Below are positions 7,935 through 29,347 of a stretch of DNA of 64,000 nucleotides, in pieces. The notes under the pieces were generated by a model, which was not told where the DNA came from, did not search any database, and saw only the letters and a program-made list of their open reading frames with translations. Position 1 is the stretch's first letter. Every line of letters starts with the position of its first letter. This DNA comes from Collinsella sp. An2 (GTDB lineage Bacteria; Actinomycetota; Coriobacteriia; Coriobacteriales; Coriobacteriaceae). The position numbers and the translations under genes are program-made. The DNA lies in the NCBI RefSeq assembly GCF_002160065.1, contig NZ_NFJW01000001.1, forward strand, positions 124,001 to 188,000, read 5' to 3'.

Positions 7935-7994
7935 TAAGAGGCGCCCATCTCTTAAAGGGTGCTCGCCCTCCTTCGGGGCTCGCGTCCATGTTCG

Positions 7995-8144
7995 AGTTGT
8001 GCGCGCACTTTCAAAGTTGATAGAGGATTTCGGCCAGAATCACTCTCAAAAGTGAGGGGTTTTGGACGAATCGCGCACGCAATTCCAGTCGGGCGTACGC
8101 AACTTTCGCCAGGTGCACGTAACCCGAAAACAGGGCACGTGTTC
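7995..8144. repeat. Phased inverted motif array, family A copy 2
   Basis: A single left motif (AGTTGTGCGCG) at 7995 is followed 20 bp later by AGTTGATAGAGG at 8015. After the core, inverse motifs end at 8084, 8104, 8124 and 8144, each 20 bp apart (GCACGCAATT, GTACGCAACT, GCACGTAACC, GCACGTGTTC). The core is identical over about 80 bp to copy 3 on the other side of the fic gene. It lies 3' of gatB. Confidence 0.88.
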
Positions 8145-9769: not shown

Positions 9770-9974
9770 AATTGCGCGTCCCAAATCCGAATTACGTACC
9801 TCATGTCCGAGTGCGTGCCCTGTTCTCGAGTTACGTGCGCGCTTTCAAAGTTGATAGAGGATTTCGGCCAGAATCACTCTCAAAAGTGAGGGGTTTTGGA
9901 CGAATCGCGCACGCAATTCCCGTCGGGCGTACGCAACTTTCACCAGGCGCACGTAATCCGGGAACGGCGCACGT
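9770..9974. repeat. Phased inverted motif array, family A copy 3
   Basis: Left motifs begin at 9770, 9790, 9810 and 9829, then AGTTGATAGAGG at 9849 (20-bp steps with one 19-bp step). After a core identical to copy 2, inverse motifs end at 9918, 9938, 9958 and about 9978, each 20 bp apart. It lies 3' of fic; the remaining ~290 bp before the next gene show no gene. Confidence 0.88.
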
Positions 9975-15866: not shown

Positions 15867-16134
15867 AGCTACGCGCCCCGCGTCTGAGTTGCGTGCGTCG
15901 TGTCCGAGTTACGTGCCCTATGTACGAGTTGCGTGCGTCGTGTCCGATTTGCGTGCGCGCTTTAAAAGTTGATGGAGGGTTTCGGCCAAAATCCCCCAAA
16001 ACGGACTGGGAATGGCCGAATCGCGCACGCAATTTTCATCGGGCGCACGTAACTTCCGTTGGGCGCACGTAACTTTAAAACGAGGTACGTAACCCGAAAG
16101 CGGGGTGCGCAACCTGCGAACAGCGCACGCAACT
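15867..16134. repeat. Phased inverted motif array, family A copy 4 (largest)
   Basis: Left motifs begin at 15867, 15887, 15907, 15927 and 15947, then AGTTGATGGAGG at 15967. After the core, inverse motifs end at about 16034, 16054, 16074, 16094, 16114 and 16134. All steps are exactly 20 bp, giving a symmetrical 6 + 6 array. It starts about 25 bp after the tmRNA terminator. The ~150 bp between it and the patatin gene show nothing recognisable. Confidence 0.92.
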
Positions 16135-19755: not shown

Positions 19756-19803
19756 CTCGCTCATCGCAACAACATGTGCGGCGGTATTCCCGTCGTCCAC
19801 TCG

Positions 19804-19832
19804 AGCCCCGGTGAAGTCCACCGGGGCTTTTT
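19804..19832 (+). terminator. nagB terminator
   Basis: AGCCCCGGTG pairs with CACCGGGGCT and ends in TTTTT; a strong intrinsic terminator. Confidence 0.92.
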
Positions 19833-19879
19833 AATGGGCATTTTAGAGTGGGGCGCATTACGAGTACCCCTCATGTTCG

Positions 19880-20029
19880 AGTTGCGTGCGCGCTTCCAAA
19901 GTTGATAGAGGGTTTCGGCCAGAATTACCTTTAAAACGGGCTGGAGATGGCCGAATTGCGCTCGCGATTTCCATCGGGCGCTCGTAACTTCCATCGGGCG
20001 CACGCAACTCGAGGACGGGGCACGCGACT
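19880..20029. repeat. Phased inverted motif array, family A copy 5
   Basis: A left motif AGTTGCGTGCG at 19880 and AGTTGATAGAGG at 19900 are followed, after the core, by inverse motifs ending near 19969, 19989, 20009 and 20029, at 20-bp steps. It lies about 50 bp after the nagB terminator. Two motifs carry CTCG in place of CACG, showing drift. Confidence 0.85.
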
Positions 20030-20183
20030 CGCATGGAGTGCCCCGGAGGCGCCGCCGAGGCCCTTCCGGAGCGTCCCGCTGCGGCCCGGCTCCGTCCCTC
20101 CCGGCGCGACGTCTCGCACGGTTCCCGGCATGCATAATATCGCGCCCGACTTGCATAGGATTTGGGGCGGCCGTGTTGCCCGT

Positions 20184-20382: not shown

Positions 20383-20520
20383 ATGTGGAAGGCCCTGCGC
20401 TACGAAAGAGAGACGATCGTCGAGCGTCATGGCGGGACAATCGGGGCATCGAGCGAAGACGAGAGAGCCGTCTTCACGGTCCGTCTTCCCTGCGAGGCGC
20501 CGCGCGATTCCGTGCGTTAA
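20383..20520 (+). pseudogene. 3' remnant of a VanS-type sensor histidine kinase
   Basis: A 45-codon frame ends in ETIVERHGGTIGASSEDER followed by AVFTVRLP, the typical last strand-helix-strand of a histidine kinase ATPase domain such as VanS. The G1/F/G2 boxes, the His box and the whole sensor part are missing, and no response regulator gene is nearby. It sits 116 bp before the vanG-like ligase in the same orientation, where vanRS precedes the resistance genes in vanG operons. It reads as a relic left when the regulators were deleted. Confidence 0.7.
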
Positions 20521-20636
20521 CGATTCCTTAAACAAGCGTTTCAACCATCTTCAGCTACCCCGTCTCGGGCGTTAAGGACGTGGCCCCCCTTGCCTCGTAG
20601 GCTTGTGTGCAGGCTAGAGGCGAGGAGGTTCCCATC

Positions 20637-21698
20637 ATGAAGCGCAAATGCATCGCCGTGCTGTTCGGCGGCAGGTCGAGTGAATATGACGTCTCGCTCG
20701 AGACCGCCGCGGCGGTTCTGGCGAACATAGACCGCACGGCATTCGAGGTTGTGCCAGTGTGGATCGAACGCGAGAGCGGCGCCTGGAACATCGTGCCCGA
20801 CGGCGTACCGGCCGAGGAGACTGCTCGGTGGCTGGAGGCGGCCCCTCGCACCCGCGCGGTCCTCTCCCCGGACCGTTTCACGCGCGGACTCGTGCTGCTC
20901 GCGGGGAGGAGCCCGCTTCGGGCCGTGCGGCTCGACGCGGCGCTGCCGCTCCTGCACGGCAAAAACGGCGAGGACGGCACGGTGCAGGGCGCCTTCGAGC
21001 TCGCCGGCATCCCGGTGGTAGGCTGCGGGTCGGAGTGCTCGGCCATCTGCATGGACAAGCGGCTTGCACATCTTGTCGCCGAGGCGGCCGGGGTGCCCGC
21101 CCCGCGCTCGTTCCTGGTGCACAAGCGGGACTTCGAGCGTACGGGTGCGCCGGACGGAGCCTCCTCGGTCGGGTTCCCCTGCCTCGTGAAGCCGGTTCGG
21201 TCCGGGTCGTCGATCGGCATCTCGCTTGTCGAGAGCGCGTCCGGGCTCGACGCGGCGTTGACGCTCGCCTTTGAGCGTGACGACGAGGCGCTCGTCGAGG
21301 AGCGCATCGAAGGGTTCGAGGTGGGCGTCGCCGTCCTCGAGCGGCGGGGCGAGCTCGTGTGCGGCGAGCCGGACGAGATCGAGATTTCCGGGGGATTCTT
21401 CGACTTCCACGAGAAGTACTCGCTCGAGACGTCGAGCATACACGTTCCGGCGCGCATCCCCGCACCGGAGCGGGCCGGGGTCCAGGCGCTCGCCCGGCGC
21501 GTGTTCCGCGGCCTCGGCTGCCGCGGGTTCGCGCGGGTCGATTTCTTCCGCGCCGCGGACGGACGCCTCCTCTTCAACGAGGTGAACACGGTTCCCGGGT
21601 TCACGGCGCACAGCAGGTTCCCGATGATGATGGCGGCGGCCGGGTGGTCGTTCGAGCGCGCCGTGAACGAGATCCTCTCCGAGGGAGTGGCCCGATGA
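20637..21698 (+). CDS. vanG: VanG-type D-alanine--D-serine ligase
   Basis: 353-residue ATP-grasp ligase. The omega-loop EKYSLETSSIHVPARI (Glu259-Lys260-Tyr261 onward) closely follows the VanG pattern and not the VanA pattern (FRIH...), so the predicted product is D-Ala-D-Ser, which lowers vancomycin affinity of peptidoglycan precursors. Other ATP-grasp hallmarks are present (LFGGRSSEYDVSL, HGKNGEDGTVQGAFELAGIPVVGC, NEVNTVPGFT). GAGGAGG precedes the ATG; an upstream ATG at 20607 lacks a site. It is the first gene of a tight same-strand cluster and overlaps vanXY by ATGA. GC is very high compared with the window. Confidence 0.85.
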   Translation: MKRKCIAVLFGGRSSEYDVSLETAAAVLANIDRTAFEVVPVWIERESGAWNIVPDGVPAEETARWLEAAPRTRAVLSPDRFTRGLVLLAGRSPLRAVRLDAALPLLHGKNGEDGTVQGAFELAGIPVVGCGSECSAICMDKRLAHLVAEAAGVPAPRSFLVHKRDFERTGAPDGASSVGFPCLVKPVRSGSSIGISLVESASGLDAALTLAFERDDEALVEERIEGFEVGVAVLERRGELVCGEPDEIEISGGFFDFHEKYSLETSSIHVPARIPAPERAGVQALARRVFRGLGCRGFARVDFFRAADGRLLFNEVNTVPGFTAHSRFPMMMAAAGWSFERAVNEILSEGVAR

Positions 21699-22423
21699 AC
21701 GGGCGGAACGCGTCAGTCGGGCGCTCCTTGATTCTGGTCAACGCCGCGCATCCGGTGCCGACGAGCGCGCTCCCCGAGCGCCTTGAGCGTGTGCGGGGCG
21801 TGAGCGGCGACATCCTGCTGGAGCGCGACGCCGCCCGCGCGCTGCGCGGGCTGGTCTCGGCCGTCGACGGGGACGGTTCCGTCCTGGCGGTCAGCGGGTT
21901 CAGGGGCCGCGAGGAGCAGGCAGCCATCTGGGACGAGGCCGTCGCCGAGAGCGGCGCCTCCTTCGCGCGGTCGTACGTCGCGCGGCCGGGATGCAGCGAG
22001 CACGAGACGGGGCTCGCGGTCGACGTGACGCTCGCGACGGAGCCGTATGACTTCATCCGGCCGAGCTTCCCGGACGAGGGCGTCGGACGCGAGTTCAGGA
22101 GGCGCGCCGCCCAATTCGGCTTCATCGAGCGCTACCGCGCGGGGGAGGAACCCGTGACGGGCATCGCCGCCGAGCCCTGGCACTTTCGCTACGTCGGGGT
22201 GCACGCGTCGGTGATCGAGCAGCTCGACCTCCCTCTCGAGGCGTACGTGGCGCGCCTCAGGAGGGGGACCTCGGTGGGGCGACCGCTGCGTGCGCGCGGG
22301 CTGCTCATATGGTGGCAGCCGGAGGGCGAGCCGATTCCGCGGACGCCCTTTCCGCTGATCGGGGCGTCTGTCACCAACGAGGGCGGCATCGTCGTGGTCG
22401 GGCGCGGCGGCCATGGGGCGTGA
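21695..22423 (+). CDS. vanXY: VanXY-type D,D-dipeptidase / D,D-carboxypeptidase
   Basis: 242-residue VanY/VanXY-family zinc peptidase, predicted to hydrolyse D-Ala-D-Ala and remove D-Ala from UDP-muramyl-pentapeptide so that only D-Ser-ended precursors remain. The S-x-H-x-x-G-x-A-x-D motif gives His103 and Asp110, and EPWH gives the catalytic Glu160 and third zinc ligand His163. No signal peptide or membrane anchor, as expected for a cytoplasmic VanXY. It follows the ligase as in vanG and vanL operons. Confidence 0.85.
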   Translation: MNGRNASVGRSLILVNAAHPVPTSALPERLERVRGVSGDILLERDAARALRGLVSAVDGDGSVLAVSGFRGREEQAAIWDEAVAESGASFARSYVARPGCSEHETGLAVDVTLATEPYDFIRPSFPDEGVGREFRRRAAQFGFIERYRAGEEPVTGIAAEPWHFRYVGVHASVIEQLDLPLEAYVARLRRGTSVGRPLRARGLLIWWQPEGEPIPRTPFPLIGASVTNEGGIVVVGRGGHGA

Positions 22424-23456
22424 CGCAGGGCGCGACGTGTGGGTGGACCGGTTCCGCCCCGTCGCCGCCTCCATGGTCGTCGCCATCCACACCGCCCCTC
22501 TCTCGGGAATCTCGCCGGCGCTGGACGAAGCGGCGACCTACGGGGCCTTTCGCGTTGCCGTGCCGTTCTTCCTCATGGTCGCGGGGCGCTACGTCCTGGC
22601 CCCTTTCCTGAGGCACCTTCCCGGATCGCGAGAGCGGGTGCGCCGCTACGCGCGGCGCGCGGTCGCGACCTACCTTCTGGCGACGGCAGCCTACCTCCCG
22701 CTCATGGCGTACGCGGGCAACCTTCCCGCAAGCGTCCCGGCGTTCCTGCGCTGGCTCCTCGTCGACGGCACCGCCTATCACCTATGGTATTTCCCGGCGC
22801 TCGTCCTCGGGCTGGCGGTCTGCTGCGCGCTATCCCGCCTTGGCCTGCGGGCGGCGCTCGCGGCGGCTGCAGCGCTCTATCTCGTGGGCACCGGAGGTGA
22901 CAGCTACTTCGGCGCCGTCGCGGCGGCTGGCCCTCTTGAACCTCTATACGGCGCCCTGTTCTCCTGCGTGGGGTACGCGCGCAACGGGCTGTTCTACGTC
23001 CCACTGTTCCTGATGCTCGGGGCTGCGAGCCGGTCTGCCGAGGAGGGGGTTCGCGCCTGTGACGGCGCGTTGCTCGCCGCGTCGCTGCTCGCCGTCGCGA
23101 CGGAGGCGTGCCTCACATCCGCGCTCGGGTGGCAGCGACATGACAGCATGTATCTCTCCCTCCCGCTCGCGTCGTGGACTCTGTTCCGCATCCTGCTGTC
23201 CGCCCGCCCGCGGGCCCGGTGCCCTCTCGATGCGGCGGCGCCGGCATCAGAGGCCGTCTACCTCGCCCATCCCTATGCCATCGTGGCGGTTCGCGGCGCG
23301 GCGCGCCTCGTCCCGGTCCTCGCGTCTCCTGCGCCGCTTTTCTCCGCAGCGCTCGTGCTCTCGTTCACAGCCGCCATGGGAGCATCGCGTGCCGCGCCCG
23401 CCGTCGGTTCCGCCGCCGCGAAGGCTCTGAAAGCGGCCAGAGGCATTGTCCGCTGA
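22413..23456 (+). CDS. Membrane half of a split VanT (acyltransferase-3 fold)
   Basis: 347 residues with about ten hydrophobic segments and an acyltransferase-3-like start (WVDRFRPVAASMVVAIHTAPL). In VanT this fold forms the N-terminal membrane domain, thought to import L-serine, fused to a racemase. Here it is a separate gene, as in the vanL operon (vanTm and vanTr). It overlaps vanXY by 11 bp. Unlike vanL, its racemase partner does not follow directly: a second ligase gene lies between them. Confidence 0.75.
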   Translation: MGRDAGRDVWVDRFRPVAASMVVAIHTAPLSGISPALDEAATYGAFRVAVPFFLMVAGRYVLAPFLRHLPGSRERVRRYARRAVATYLLATAAYLPLMAYAGNLPASVPAFLRWLLVDGTAYHLWYFPALVLGLAVCCALSRLGLRAALAAAAALYLVGTGGDSYFGAVAAAGPLEPLYGALFSCVGYARNGLFYVPLFLMLGAASRSAEEGVRACDGALLAASLLAVATEACLTSALGWQRHDSMYLSLPLASWTLFRILLSARPRARCPLDAAAPASEAVYLAHPYAIVAVRGAARLVPVLASPAPLFSAALVLSFTAAMGASRAAPAVGSAAAKALKAARGIVR

Positions 23457-23473
23457 GTACGAAAGGGGTCTCC

Positions 23474-24547
23474 ATGGTCACTGTCGCCATTCTCTTCGGT
23501 GGCATCTCCACCGAGCACGATATATCGCTGAGGTCCGCCGACAACGTGATTTCCCAGCTTCCACGCGACCGGTTCCGTCCGGTGCTCATCGGCATCACGC
23601 GCTCAGGCGCGTGGTTCCATTACACGGGCGATGCGGCGGACGTGGTCACCGGTGTCTGGGAGCGGCACGACTGCGCCCCGGTGGCGCTCGTGCCCGGCCG
23701 CGGCCCCGAGGCGCGCGGCGGCTTGATGGAGCGCGCCGGGGACGGCTGGCGCCGCCTCGACGTCGACGTCGCGCTGCCGGTGCTCCACGGCCGAGGCGGC
23801 GAGGACGGCACGGTGCAGGGGGCGCTCGAAGCCTGCGGAATCCCGTACGTGGGGTGCGGCGTGCTGGCGTCGGCGGTCTGCATGGACAAGGACGTCTCGC
23901 ACCGCCTGGCCTCCGCCGCGGGCGTGCGCTCCCCGCGCTGCGCCGTGCTCTATCGCGGCGCCCCGGACGCGGCGCGCCGCGAGGCGGTGGCGCGCTGCGG
24001 CGGGTTTCCCGTGTTCGTGAAGCCTGCGCGCGGTGGCTCGTCCATCGGCGTCTCGAGGGCGGTGGACGAGGCCTCGTATGAGGAGGCGCTCGGGGCCGCC
24101 TTCGCCCTCGACGAGAAGGTCGCCGTCGAGGAGGCCGTCGCGGGCATCGAGGTGGGGTGCGCGGTCGTGGGCGACGCGGCCCGCGGCGTCCGGATGGGCG
24201 CGATCGACGAGATCGTCGTTCCGGACAATGGCTTCTTCCGCATCCACCTGGAGAAGAACCCGGACGCCAACACCGAGCTTCGCTGCCCGGCGGACCTGCC
24301 GGACGATGTGCTCGAGCGCGTGCGCGCGGCGGGGCGCACGGTGTACGAGGCGCTCGGATGCTCGGGCTTCGCGCGCGTCGACCTCTTCGTGACGCCCGAG
24401 GGCGAGGTCGTGTTCAACGAGGTCAACTCGACGCCGGGCCTCACGCGCTATTCCCGCTTTCCCCGGATGATGCGCGCCGCCGGCCATGAGCTGGGCGACG
24501 TGCTGGCAGAGATGGTCACAGCAAAGATTGACCGCCGACCGCGGTGA
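23474..24547 (+). CDS. Second D-Ala--D-X ligase, VanA/VanB-like
   Basis: 357-residue ATP-grasp ligase clearly different from the first. Its omega-loop reads GFFRIHLEKNPDANTELRCP, with His258 in FRIH at the place of the VanA-type histidine linked to D-lactate selection, and it ends with a VanA-like TRYSRFPRMMRAAG. This points to D-Ala-D-Lac ligase ancestry. However, no VanH lactate dehydrogenase or VanX is present in the window, so it may use another substrate or be a specialised D-Ala-D-Ala ligase. GAAAGGGG precedes the ATG. It sits between the two vanT halves. Confidence 0.75.
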   Translation: MVTVAILFGGISTEHDISLRSADNVISQLPRDRFRPVLIGITRSGAWFHYTGDAADVVTGVWERHDCAPVALVPGRGPEARGGLMERAGDGWRRLDVDVALPVLHGRGGEDGTVQGALEACGIPYVGCGVLASAVCMDKDVSHRLASAAGVRSPRCAVLYRGAPDAARREAVARCGGFPVFVKPARGGSSIGVSRAVDEASYEEALGAAFALDEKVAVEEAVAGIEVGCAVVGDAARGVRMGAIDEIVVPDNGFFRIHLEKNPDANTELRCPADLPDDVLERVRAAGRTVYEALGCSGFARVDLFVTPEGEVVFNEVNSTPGLTRYSRFPRMMRAAGHELGDVLAEMVTAKIDRRPR

Positions 24548-24557
24548 AGGAGTGATT

Positions 24558-25748
24558 ATGGGCTGTAACGAAGGCCGCTCCGCCACGGCGGAACCACTAG
24601 GAATCCCAGCGGATGCCCGGGCGTGGGTCGAGGTCGACCCCTCCGCCCTTGCGGCCAACTATAGGCGCATCGTTCGCGTGCTGCCATGCGGCTGCGAGGC
24701 GATGGCCGTGCTCAAGGCCGACGCCTACGGGCACGGCGCCGCGGCGGCGGCGCGGGCGCTCGGGGGCGCGGGGTGCCGATCGGCATGCGTCGCCACCCTT
24801 CAGGAGGCCGTCCAGCTGAGGGAAGCGGGGTTCCCCGGCTCCGTCCTCGTGCTCGGGTGGACCCCGCCCGAGCTCGTCCCCGTCGCCGTTCGGTACCGCG
24901 TCGCGCTCGCCGCGGCGGACGAGGAGCACGCCCGGGCGCTGGCGGCCTCTGCGGAGCGGTCGGACGTCGAGGCGGTCGTCCATCTCGCCGTCGACACGGG
25001 CATGCACCGACTCGGGATCGCCTGGGACGACCCTGATGCTGTCATCCGCGCGTTCCGCCTGCCCGGCGCGCGGGTTCGCGGCGTGTTCTCGCACCTCGCT
25101 GCGGCAGACGGGGCTACCGCGCGCGACCAGCGGGCCACGACCGTCCAGATTCAAAGGTTCTCGCGGCTCGCGAGCGAGCTTAGACGCCGCGGGCTCACCT
25201 TCTGCGCGCATCTGGCGAGCAGCTACGGAACCCTGCGCTATCCCTGCGCGTGCTTCGACGCCGTGCGCGTCGGCATCGCCCTCTATGGGGTCTCGAGCGC
25301 GCCTGATGAGCCCCTGCCGGCGGAGCTCGGCCTCGAGCCCGTCCTCTCCCTGCGCGCCCGCGTGGCGTGCGTGCGTCGCGTCCCGGCGGGCGAGGGCGTG
25401 GGATACGGGCTGCTGGACTCCACGCCGGCCGAGCGCTGCATCGCGACCGTCGCCATCGGCTATGCTGACGGCGTCCCTCGCTCCCTCTCCGGTTCTGCGT
25501 CGGTTCTCGTTTCCGGCGCGCGCTGCCCGGTGGTCGGCCGCATATGCATGGACCAGCTGATGGTCGACGTGACCGGCGTCGGGGGCGTGTCGCCCGGAGA
25601 CGTCGCGACCCTGATTGGCCGCGACGGTGCGGGCGAGATTCGCGTCGAGGAGGTCGCCAAGGCCGCGGGAACCATCAGCAATGAGGTGCTCTCTCGTTTG
25701 GGAGAACGTCTTCCGAGGGTTGTCGCCGCTTCTGCCGTTTCTGGTTGA
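24558..25748 (+). CDS. Alanine/serine racemase, soluble half of split VanT
   Basis: 396-residue fold-type III PLP racemase. Lys53 (VLKADAYGHG) binds PLP and Tyr283 (GVGYG) is the second catalytic base; GRICMDQLMVDVT is intact. In this cluster it should supply D-serine (and D-alanine) to the ligases. Start at 24558 after GAAGGAG; a longer frame from 24486 overlaps the ligase gene. It is the last recognisable gene of the van cluster. From sequence alone it could equally be an ordinary alanine racemase. Confidence 0.8.
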   Translation: MGCNEGRSATAEPLGIPADARAWVEVDPSALAANYRRIVRVLPCGCEAMAVLKADAYGHGAAAAARALGGAGCRSACVATLQEAVQLREAGFPGSVLVLGWTPPELVPVAVRYRVALAAADEEHARALAASAERSDVEAVVHLAVDTGMHRLGIAWDDPDAVIRAFRLPGARVRGVFSHLAAADGATARDQRATTVQIQRFSRLASELRRRGLTFCAHLASSYGTLRYPCACFDAVRVGIALYGVSSAPDEPLPAELGLEPVLSLRARVACVRRVPAGEGVGYGLLDSTPAERCIATVAIGYADGVPRSLSGSASVLVSGARCPVVGRICMDQLMVDVTGVGGVSPGDVATLIGRDGAGEIRVEEVAKAAGTISNEVLSRLGERLPRVVAASAVSG

Positions 25749-26305
25749 GATGCTGCCGGACGCCTGGACTTCTCCCAACAGACAGCCATAGCGTGGCGCC
25801 GCCGTGTTCATTACATCCGGCGGAATACGACGTCTCGGTGGCACGACACGGGCCTCGAGATTGAACCTGTATAGCGCACACCCTGTCAGGCCGCCGGGGC
25901 CCATGCGTGCGTCGCACTCGTAGCGCGAGATGCCTATGGAGAGCCCCACGGTTCCATCTCTCCCATTTCTTTCGCATTTCTAACACGGGCATGTGCCGAG
26001 TGCCTGGTTTTCATAAGCACATAGCGAGAGCAACATGCTCGAGAAATCTGCAAACGGTCGCGACAACTCTGTAGAAGGAGCACTGCGGTAGGGCATGAAC
26101 GTCTCCCTTTTGGTATGAATGAGTGGAGGGGACAACGGTATGTCGCTGAGCAGCGTGTCTTTGCGAATAACGCCCCTGGTAGTCCGCCCTGGTCGAAAAA
26201 ATCGATGAATCTTGTCCATTTCTGACACGGCCTTTTAATGGCGGACATTTTGCACGGTTTGGTTTATGGCGCGCGCATATGGTGGAGGTGGGGGAGGAAT
26301 GGACG
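25749..26305. other. Intergenic stretch, no gene seen
   Basis: 557 bp after the van cluster. I see no credible reading frame, RNA or phased array. Minus-strand frames lack ribosome sites and recognisable motifs. GC falls towards the right end, consistent with the border of the high-GC van island and a promoter region for the next gene. Confidence 0.5.
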
Positions 26306-29300
26306 ATGACAACGAGAAGACAATCGACCGGGAAAGCTGGCAGGGGAGAGCAAATCAAGCGACTCGGTGGCGCTTCCTCCGCCGACCGGCCGGTGAAAGG
26401 CGTAGATGCGCTTCCTATGGGAGCGGGTTTCACCGTACGTAGAACGCGGCTTCTTGACGAGGTTCTGACATACGACGCGAGCGGCAAGGCGATTGTGGTC
26501 TGTGCTCCGGACAATTTTGGGAAGACGGCGTTGGTACTGCAGATCGTCGACGAGGTGCGTACAGATCCCAAGCGCGGCGCCGCTTTGCTGATCGATGCAC
26601 ACGATGCGCAGGTAGATGAGCTGCTGATGCAGTTCGATGATGCGGAGGGCCTTTTCGAGCAGTCCGACCATCCGCTTGTTGCCATCGACGGCCTCCCCCG
26701 CTTTGAAAAGAAGCAGGCGCGCATGATTGCAGCGCGGCTTCGAGAGCTGCGCAGCCGTGGCTGCGGAATCGTCGTGGCGTGCGGGCCGTCCAACCAGGCC
26801 TTTCTGAAGGCGTTTGGAGATTCGGTCAAAATAACGCCCCGGGCGCTGCTGGTTGGACCGCATGAGTACTCAGACTGGGCACGCGCGTTCTCGTTGCCCA
26901 TCGACCTTGACATATATCGGCTGACTCAAGGGGTCCCGGCGTTGGTCGCGGGCCTTAGGGGGACAAAGGCAGGCGCGCAGGAACTTCCCCGGCAGTTCAA
27001 TGCGTGCGTATTTGACGTCTATCAGGCGGTTCTAAAAGATCTGGCAGGCTGGAACAAACAGCTGCTGGGCATGGCGTCGCTCATGATGTTGCTTGGTAAC
27101 GGGTCGCTGGCAGACATGGGGCGCTGCGGCCCAGGCCTCTCGACGCAGCAGGTATCGGCATTCATGCATGACTATCCAGTGTTTGGGGTCGACCCCGCGC
27201 TTCAAACCTTTGCGTGTGTGGACGGGGCTCCCGAGGCGATGCGTCGTCTGTGTGCCTCGATCGTGCGGGACGAGCCCCGGTTGGCGCGGCGGGCGGTCAA
27301 GACGCTGGTGAAGCTGGGCCGCATCGACCGTGCGACCGCGTTGGTTGCGCGCCTGTTAGAGCCGGACGAAGCGCTCAAGACGGTGCTGGCGTTTCCGACG
27401 GACTTTTCCCTTGCTGGACACGCGCAGCTGGTGATGAGGCTGCTCGCTGTTCCTAGGGACCGGCATGAGCCCGCCCGTCCACGTGAGCTTACCGCGCTCT
27501 ATGTGGCGTCGATCATGACGGGAGACCTGAGGTCGGCGCGCTCCGCGGCCTCGCGGCTCAGCCGGCTGGCCGAGGACATTGAGGCGGAGGTCGACCGGCT
27601 CGACTGGCAGCGGGCGGAGGCAGTCAATGCGGCGTGGGGAGGCTCCGACGGCCTGGGGCTGCCGAGTCTGCCTGGCGATGCTGCAGAGGAGCGGGACGCT
27701 GCGAGCGACCTTCTGCTTTTGCACGCGCAACTGCTGCGCGCCGTGGTGCGCCATGAGGACTTGCCGGATGTGATTCCCGCCGAGAGGGCGCAACCTGCCG
27801 GCGTGGAACTGGACCTGCCGCGTCTTTTGGTTGCGGCGGACCGCCTGCTGGGCGAGGCGATGCTGGGCGTCACCCTGAGGCTGGACGACCGAGATGACAA
27901 GATGGAGAAAAGCCTCGAGGGCCTGGCGGCAGGCGAGCTCTCCTGGGTCGGGGCTCAGGTGCGTCTTGCCGTCGAGGTGAGGCGCTTGCTGTTGGGCATT
28001 CCGGTGACCGACAAACAGGCCTTTGCCGACGTGGGCACCGTCTTCGTTCGTGCGACGAACCAGGAGATGCAGTTGTTCTGTCTTGTCCTCGAGGGCTGGC
28101 AGTCGCTTCTGGACGGGGAGGTGGCAAACGCCGGGTTTCGAGGACGGCAGGTCGCCCGCCTTGCCGGGGAAGACCTGCAGTTCTTGTTCGACTGGGCAAA
28201 GCTGCTCGAGCAGGTGGCGTACCTCAGAAACACTTCGCGCGTTACGGTTCGCGAGGAGGCCGCCCTGCTTGACCTGCAGCAGCAGAGCGTCACGCCTCTC
28301 TATGCATGGCGGGTCGCGTTGACGCTCGCGGCGGCGCGCATGGATGCCGAGCTCTCGGCGTGGTACTCGCTGCAGCGCCCTGCGCTCATGGAGCCGTCGG
28401 TTCGCCTACTGGCACGGCTGGCGCTCGATGCGCTGGGAGATCGTTCGGACGCGATGCGCCGGCTCATACCGCACGGCCTGCTTTCGAGCTATAGCAACCT
28501 TGCGCCTGCGGGGGTGAGAAACGACAGCCTGTTTCAGCTGGTTGAGCGACCGCCGGCCGATGACGACCAGGTTGAGATCAGGCTCTTCGGAGGATTTCGG
28601 GCCGAGCGCGGCGGCCACATCATGCTCGACGACCTGTGGCGGCGCAAGAAGACGAGCATCCTGGCCGCCCGCCTTGTTCTGGCGGAGGGGTCGTTCGTGC
28701 GGCGCGATGTGCTGGCCGCCGAATTTTGGCCGCAGCTGTCGGAAGAGCGGGGGCGATGTAACCTGTATACGGCTCTTTCCGCCTTACGCCATGCGTTAGG
28801 ACAGCGAAAGGAGGGCGTGAGCTACCTCATCACCCAAGGGGACGGCATTGCAATCAACACAGAGTACATCTCATCCGATGTGATGGTCTTCAATGCCCTC
28901 GCGCGCCAAGTGTTGCTAAGAAGAACGGGCGTGAGCGCGCCGCAGCTTATCGAGCTCTGCCTCAAGATTGAAGAGGTCTACTGTGGCCCGCTCTATGTGC
29001 CCGACCGGGATGCTCCGGCGTTCTTTCGCAACATGCGCAAGGTGATGCAGAGCAAGTTTATCGACTGCATGATGCGCGGCGTCGATTTGGCGATTGACGA
29101 GCAGAACGTGACGGCGGCAATCTGGATGGCCGAATCGGCCTTGCGCCACGATCCAGGGCGTGAGGACGTGGTGCGTGCGGCGATGCGCGTGTACGACATG
29201 GATGGTCGCAGGCGCGAGGTCGAAGAACTCTACAAGCGCCACGGACTCTACCTGAGCGAACATGGGGACGGCCTTCCCGAGCCGGAGACGAGAGCGCTTT

Positions 29301-29347
29301 ACGAGCGGATTATGCAGCGCTTGAGCCGGCGCAGCTCGGCGTCGTAG
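26306..29347 (+). CDS. Large NTPase regulator with C-terminal SARP/BTAD domain
   Basis: About 1013 residues. An N-terminal NTPase-like domain carries a relaxed Walker A (APDNFGKT, ~67-74) and a Walker B-like LVAIDG near 126. A long helical, TPR-like middle follows. From about residue 756 there is a winged-helix DNA-binding domain (VEIRLFGGFRAERGG ... LWRRKKTSILAARLVLAEG) and a BTAD segment with helical repeats, as in SARP-type activators. It is probably a signal-responsive transcription activator; the target is unknown and no neighbour suggests one. I chose 26306, which has GGGGGAGGA at good spacing; an ATG at 26279 would add nine residues. Confidence 0.75.
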   Translation: MTTRRQSTGKAGRGEQIKRLGGASSADRPVKGVDALPMGAGFTVRRTRLLDEVLTYDASGKAIVVCAPDNFGKTALVLQIVDEVRTDPKRGAALLIDAHDAQVDELLMQFDDAEGLFEQSDHPLVAIDGLPRFEKKQARMIAARLRELRSRGCGIVVACGPSNQAFLKAFGDSVKITPRALLVGPHEYSDWARAFSLPIDLDIYRLTQGVPALVAGLRGTKAGAQELPRQFNACVFDVYQAVLKDLAGWNKQLLGMASLMMLLGNGSLADMGRCGPGLSTQQVSAFMHDYPVFGVDPALQTFACVDGAPEAMRRLCASIVRDEPRLARRAVKTLVKLGRIDRATALVARLLEPDEALKTVLAFPTDFSLAGHAQLVMRLLAVPRDRHEPARPRELTALYVASIMTGDLRSARSAASRLSRLAEDIEAEVDRLDWQRAEAVNAAWGGSDGLGLPSLPGDAAEERDAASDLLLLHAQLLRAVVRHEDLPDVIPAERAQPAGVELDLPRLLVAADRLLGEAMLGVTLRLDDRDDKMEKSLEGLAAGELSWVGAQVRLAVEVRRLLLGIPVTDKQAFADVGTVFVRATNQEMQLFCLVLEGWQSLLDGEVANAGFRGRQVARLAGEDLQFLFDWAKLLEQVAYLRNTSRVTVREEAALLDLQQQSVTPLYAWRVALTLAAARMDAELSAWYSLQRPALMEPSVRLLARLALDALGDRSDAMRRLIPHGLLSSYSNLAPAGVRNDSLFQLVERPPADDDQVEIRLFGGFRAERGGHIMLDDLWRRKKTSILAARLVLAEGSFVRRDVLAAEFWPQLSEERGRCNLYTALSALRHALGQRKEGVSYLITQGDGIAINTEYISSDVMVFNALARQVLLRRTGVSAPQLIELCLKIEEVYCGPLYVPDRDAPAFFRNMRKVMQSKFIDCMMRGVDLAIDEQNVTAAIWMAESALRHDPGREDVVRAAMRVYDMDGRRREVEELYKRHGLYLSEHGDGLPEPETRALYERIMQRLSRRSSAS

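Follow-up and report, generated by a model that had tools for sequence, protein, structure and literature searches.

The vanG-type operons (vanG of E. faecalis; the vanG cluster of the Subdoligranulum plasmid OY725857) carry VanRS upstream, followed by ligase, vanXY and vanT in that order, with a racemase of the serine type, and are marked by D-Ala-D-Ser as product and by vancomycin resistance of a low level; in the Subdoligranulum cluster VanT is one fused protein. The vanC operon of E. gallinarum, another D-Ser operon, is flanked by an extra ddl gene, which lies outside the operon on the opposite strand and is annotated as a D-Ala-D-Ala ligase. In vanL operons, which have a single ligase, the two halves of VanT are adjacent. 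The separate membrane and racemase proteins of vanL have been named vanTm and vanTr (PMC11597547). The D-Ala-D-Lac systems (vanA, vanB, vanD and vanI) are marked by vanH and vanX in the cluster, except that vanH of the vanI system lies outside its cluster; the published gene list of vanI, from Desulfitobacterium hafniense, comprises vanX, murF, vanW, vanRS and one ligase, without VanT or VanXY (PMC4229326).

The window that we analysed (64,000 nucleotides, bases 124001-188000 of contig C1 in genome G000, which is 2.54 Mb long and 99.9% complete) belongs to a Coriobacteriaceae-like gut bacterium that has gained a van-type operon horizontally, and we compared this operon with 397 Coriobacteriales genomes. 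It resembles the vanG type in the clade of its first ligase, in the order ligase-vanXY-vanT and in its serine-type racemase, and differs from the fused Subdoligranulum arrangement in that VanT is split and a second ligase (lig2) stands between the halves. It is neither a vanL operon, as lig2 parts the VanT halves, nor a D-Lac operon, as both vanH and vanX are missing from the cluster. The best reading is that it is a variant of the VanG type, from which it departs in having no one-piece VanT and, in the window, no VanRS. The first-pass annotation had suggested a distinct van type; since the arrangement is common to G000 and one other genome, G178, it may fairly be called a distinct sub-type, which belongs within the VanG-type operons and is not a wholly new class. 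In the literature that we could search, with its incomplete coverage, no named van operon with this order was found.

The five genes

All five reading frames are open, lie on the plus strand within 20637-25748 and stand in the order that the first-pass annotation had given. They are tightly packed: the junctions along the operon are overlaps of 4 and 11 bases and then gaps of 17 and 10 bases, which suggests that the five genes are read as a single transcription unit.

The first gene, lig1 (20637-21698), encodes a predicted VanG-type D-Ala-D-Ser ligase. Its best NCBIfam model is VanG, at 400 bits (under the cut-off of 495), and in a ligase tree without VanE and VanL it falls into the VanG/VanC/VanN clade (96/83; 93/86), so that its earlier description as VanG-like holds for both model and phylogeny. 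It has the EKY loop, and its HSRFP motif resembles the HSRYP of D-Ser ligases. Viral contigs searched for lig1 gave no matches. Downstream of lig1 lie both vanXY and a serine-racemase-type vanT. The former (21695-22423) encodes a predicted D,D-dipeptidase/carboxypeptidase with the zinc-site motifs SEHETGLAVD and EPWH, and scores 173 bits against the NCBIfam VanXY model.

The membrane half of VanT (memT, 22413-23456) is Acyl_transf_3-like and matches the N-terminal half of the vanT-CELN model at 254 bits. The racemase half (rac, 24558-25748) scores 426 bits against vanT-G-Cterm (cut-off 460), and its closest solved structure is the VanT-G racemase 4ecl (291 bits, compared with 219 for the best alanine racemase). 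Like VanT proteins it has Asn in TISNEV, where the Alr of the host has Tyr (TINYE); we take this Asn to be the mark of serine racemases. In a further difference from vanL, the two halves score higher with vanT-CELN and vanT-G-Cterm than with the vanT-L models. Compared with the fused VanT proteins of Subdoligranulum, E. gallinarum and E. faecium, the split falls in the linker between the membrane and racemase domains. Between the halves lies lig2 (23474-24547, with its ATG at 23474), 43% identical to lig1; thus the split VanT and the presence of two different ligases in one operon, both reported in the first-pass annotation, are real. G000 has three clear D-Ala ligases in total, the third being its own housekeeping Ddl, which is encoded on contig C12, apart from both operon ligases.

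Four VanG-like loci of other Coriobacteriales (L106, L107, L108 and L109) have only one VanT half nearby: they consist of a ligase and a racemase without the membrane domain, or of a ligase and the membrane domain without a racemase. Such single halves suggest that the split of VanT may be older than the arrival of lig2 in the operon.

Transfer, insertion and loss of vanRS

Among the 397 Coriobacteriales genomes, lig1 recurs at more than 90% identity only in G178, and only these two genomes carry the operon. G178 is a single-contig assembly from a different family of the order. It has the five genes in identical order, with protein identities of 95, 92, 89, 95 and 92%, and its DNA is 94% identical across window positions 20415-25718. 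As G178 is an independent single-contig genome of another family, the gene order is not an assembly error; this shared order, together with the synteny of the window flanks with sister species, rules out an artefact of assembly or contamination. Between the two genomes dN/dS is 0.15 for lig1, 0.28 for vanXY, 0.26 for memT, 0.27 for lig2 and 0.45 for rac, showing that every gene of the operon, lig2 included, is under purifying selection.

In G178 the genes just upstream of the operon encode, as in the vanG type, a regulator like VanR (287 bits) and a kinase like VanS (282 bits). The upstream region also encodes a T4SS coupling protein, a TraG-type ATPase, CHAP-domain and Toprim proteins and a methylase/helicase of 2069 residues; about 6 kb downstream of the operon comes a tyrosine integrase, followed by an argininosuccinate synthase-like ORF (judged by its N-terminus). 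The operon of G178 apparently lies on an integrative conjugative element. Within the element two similar sigma-70 region-4-like ORFs (L105 6994-7479 and 14855-15268) flank the van operon, and a TetR regulator and an ABC-transporter-like pair are found downstream of it.

In the window, the operon is an insert at a site that is empty in two sister species. It sits between nagB and the gene of a BTAD-domain regulator, where G065 and G066 hold short spacers (window positions 19760 and 26202 correspond to 5307 and 5700 in L161), and its GC content is 71.3% against 62% for the window. No conjugative-element genes like those of G178 adjoin the operon here, and no direct or inverted repeats of at least 10 bases were found between the two insertion flanks. 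The window copy has also lost vanR and most of vanS. What is left of the latter is an in-frame remnant of about 31 codons (about 20415-20521, plus strand), the end of a sensor kinase (...IVERHGGTIGASSEDERAVFTVRLPCEAPRDSVR*), whose reading frame corresponds to the C-terminal end of the complete kinase in G178 (L105 8256-9500). Because the stretch shared with G178 has its left end at this remnant, and so starts inside vanS, the loss of vanRS dates from the time of insertion or later. The insert kept the upstream promoter/RBS region (20522-20636, plus strand): in the 120 bases that lead up to the start region of lig1 the two genomes agree at 117, a conservation above that of the coding regions. 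Neither the insertion of the block nor the loss of vanR and vanS had been recorded in the first-pass annotation.

Elsewhere in G000, on contig C7, a resident VanR/VanS-like pair (L164 4216-6743) adjoins a D-Ala-D-Ala-carboxypeptidase-like ORF, and its kinase is conserved in the sister species G065 (323 and 321 bits with the VanS model). This pair is possibly a native envelope sensor, and its kinase and regulator could act on the operon promoter that the insert retained.

The surroundings of the insertion site have features of their own. Just left of the operon (window 19830-20170) is a dispersed repeat of about 140-350 bases, with copies 76-86% identical at window positions 15938-16074, 9826-9973 and 7987-8139 and many more genome-wide. 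Next to the site, window 26279-29347 encodes a 1022-residue protein in which a C-terminal BTAD domain is the sole recognised domain; the gene is 67% identical in G065.

The lineage of the second ligase

The second ligase scores 370 bits with the VanG model and 329 bits with the general D-Ala-D-Lac ligase model (cut-off 550), under both cut-offs and under those of all other D-Lac models. It shares 67-81% identity with ligases that occur singly in Collinsella, Olsenella, Thermophilibacter and relatives, has the same FRIH loop as these and forms one clade with them (100/100). The family is present in 43 of the 397 genomes, with one copy each; in G000 and G178 the operon copy is the only one, and the other 41 genomes lack the operon. 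In these the ligase is a single gene, and at the loci examined its chromosomal flanks (up to 8 kb on each side) showed no van partner; those genomes that were tested have a separate Ddl, whereas lig2 lies inside a van operon. By these comparisons lig2 is an orthologue of the stand-alone Coriobacteriales ligase, and the best reading is that it was captured into the operon from this lineage. Near the stand-alone genes a P-type-ATPase-like ORF and an ArsR-like regulator recur (names read from sequence), in a BLAST clustering of neighbours that shadow ORFs in the GC-rich DNA made noisy. A racemase near the stand-alone gene in L057 was rejected as a chance match of 33 residues.

Could lig2 simply be a housekeeping Ddl? 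The phylogeny rules this out, removing a doubt that the first-pass annotation had itself raised: the Ddl proteins of the Coriobacteriales form their own clade (100/96; 100/100), and lig2 is placed outside it with 100/100 separation. Its neighbours in the tree are VanA, VanB, VanO, a Sporolactobacillus ligase and, from two further Coriobacteriales genomes, D-Lac-like (VanD-like) ligases that are linked to vanH, and it may represent a deep sister lineage of the D-Lac ligases, although the join is weak (88/72; 89/33).

In its residues lig2 resembles VanA. H258 of the FRIH motif aligns exactly with H244 of VanA, which we take to be the omega-loop histidine standing in place of the Ddl tyrosine. 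Across 16 members of the family neither I257 nor H258 varies, and the FRIH histidine is also found in Sporolactobacillus. The YSRFPRMM of lig2 is like the YSRYPRMM of VanA and unlike the HSRYP of VanG and VanC. An AlphaFold model of lig2 (pLDDT 87.6) has its best structural matches in VanG (4fu0) and VanA (1e4e/3se7), but as the specificity loop (residues 256-265) is its worst-predicted segment (pLDDT below 50), the model does not show which substrate lig2 takes. Thus, of the first-pass description of lig2 as a VanA/B-like, D-Lac-type ligase, the shared FRIH loop stands, while the term D-Lac-type draws on residues and not on the weakly joined tree.

Function of the operon and competing explanations

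On the whole we think it probable that the window holds a horizontally acquired VanG-type operon with a two-protein VanT and a captured lig2, likely for D-Ala-D-Lac, inserted without most of VanRS. Its substrates, its expression and any resistance that it confers we infer as follows. VanT would supply D-Ser, which lig1 would join to D-Ala; VanXY would strip the D-Ala-D-Ala ends and, with D-Ala-D-Ser made, vancomycin would bind poorly. To this lig2 would add the depsipeptide D-Ala-D-Lac, for which VanH-like dehydrogenases encoded on the chromosome would supply the D-lactate. The operon now stands between nagB and the BTAD-domain regulator with little left of its VanRS switch, and transcription would probably proceed from the retained upstream region, either constitutively or via the resident VanRS-like system. 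For the product of lig2 we put D-Ala-D-Lac at about an even chance, with D-Ala-D-Ala as the alternative. That this is a dual-mode mobile operon, in which D-Ala-D-Ser from lig1 and D-Ala-D-Lac from lig2 would give mixed precursors in the same cell, is a more tentative suggestion.

The D-lactate supply bears on this. VanH was not found in the gene cluster, as had been noted in the first pass; the wider genome does offer VanH-like genes, as two D-2-hydroxyacid dehydrogenases on contigs C20 and C21 have VanH as their best model, at 283 and 267 bits, both under its cut-off of 540. These proteins may act on other 2-hydroxy acids. The window operon is like vanI in having no vanH in the cluster, and the D-Lac pathway of vanI can work nonetheless (PMC4229326); thus an operon that lacks vanH is still compatible with D-Lac. 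VanX (Peptidase_M15, PF01427) was found in neither the cluster nor the rest of the G000 genome, and VanXY would be the dipeptidase that acts on D-Ala-D-Ala.

Instead of a depsipeptide, lig2 may make D-Ala-D-Ala (or, more broadly, D-Ala-D-X): it would serve as a back-up to Ddl, preserving some of the normal precursor or conferring tolerance of D-cycloserine, and would stand in the operon as a by-product of its capture. The stand-alone orthologues would suit such a role, sitting as they do in genomes with an intact housekeeping Ddl and without VanXY or VanT in the flanks examined; VanX in the family amounts to one marginal match, and the tree ties lig2 weakly to the D-Lac ligases. There is precedent in the extra Ddl genes of mobile cassettes, which confer D-cycloserine resistance (PMC7691350), and in the extra Ddl gene flanking vanC of E. 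gallinarum, although the latter is outside its operon and lig2 is inside, and from another lineage. We nevertheless regard this as rather unlikely, because where Ddl enzymes carry the KY pair (Tyr216 of DdlB) lig2 shows the VanA-type FRIH, with a histidine that does not vary in the family and extends to Sporolactobacillus.

Loss of vanRS means that the operon may be poorly expressed, and the window copy could even be a decaying, non-expressed passenger that has conferred nothing since vanR and most of vanS went; its presence in so few genomes would agree with this. Set against it are the five open reading frames, the dN/dS values well below 1, the near-identity of the upstream region to that of the copy with vanRS, and the VanS-like kinase and adjoining response regulator that the host has on contig C7, and we hold a passenger to be improbable. 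The tight spacing of the genes and their conserved order in two families might also reflect co-translational assembly, if the VanT halves and both ligases formed a complex channelling D-Ser (and another substrate). This strikes us as very improbable, as operon order alone seldom proves complex formation and some other VanG-like loci in the Coriobacteriales carry a single VanT half.

Returning to the captured-ligase reading, this would be the first van operon that we could find to contain two different ligases of the Van superfamily, and through it a resistance operon carried by a conjugative element is connected with the stand-alone ligases that are widespread in the Coriobacteriales. It shows that van genes are exchanged between families of common gut Actinomycetota, and it makes the combination of D-Ser and D-Lac strategies in one cell testable. 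If the operon did work in both modes, its glycopeptide spectrum would be wider than that of D-Ser operons, and lig2 would derive from a resident Coriobacteriales family that has so far not been counted among the resistance genes.

D-Lac-like ligases occur elsewhere in the order, in two genomes of another Coriobacteriales family (L112 5284-6953 and L113 4784-7372). The ligase of L113 (533 bits, compared with the cut-off of 550) lies directly 3′ of a VanH-like dehydrogenase, with a further ORF downstream, in an arrangement that resembles vanHDX.
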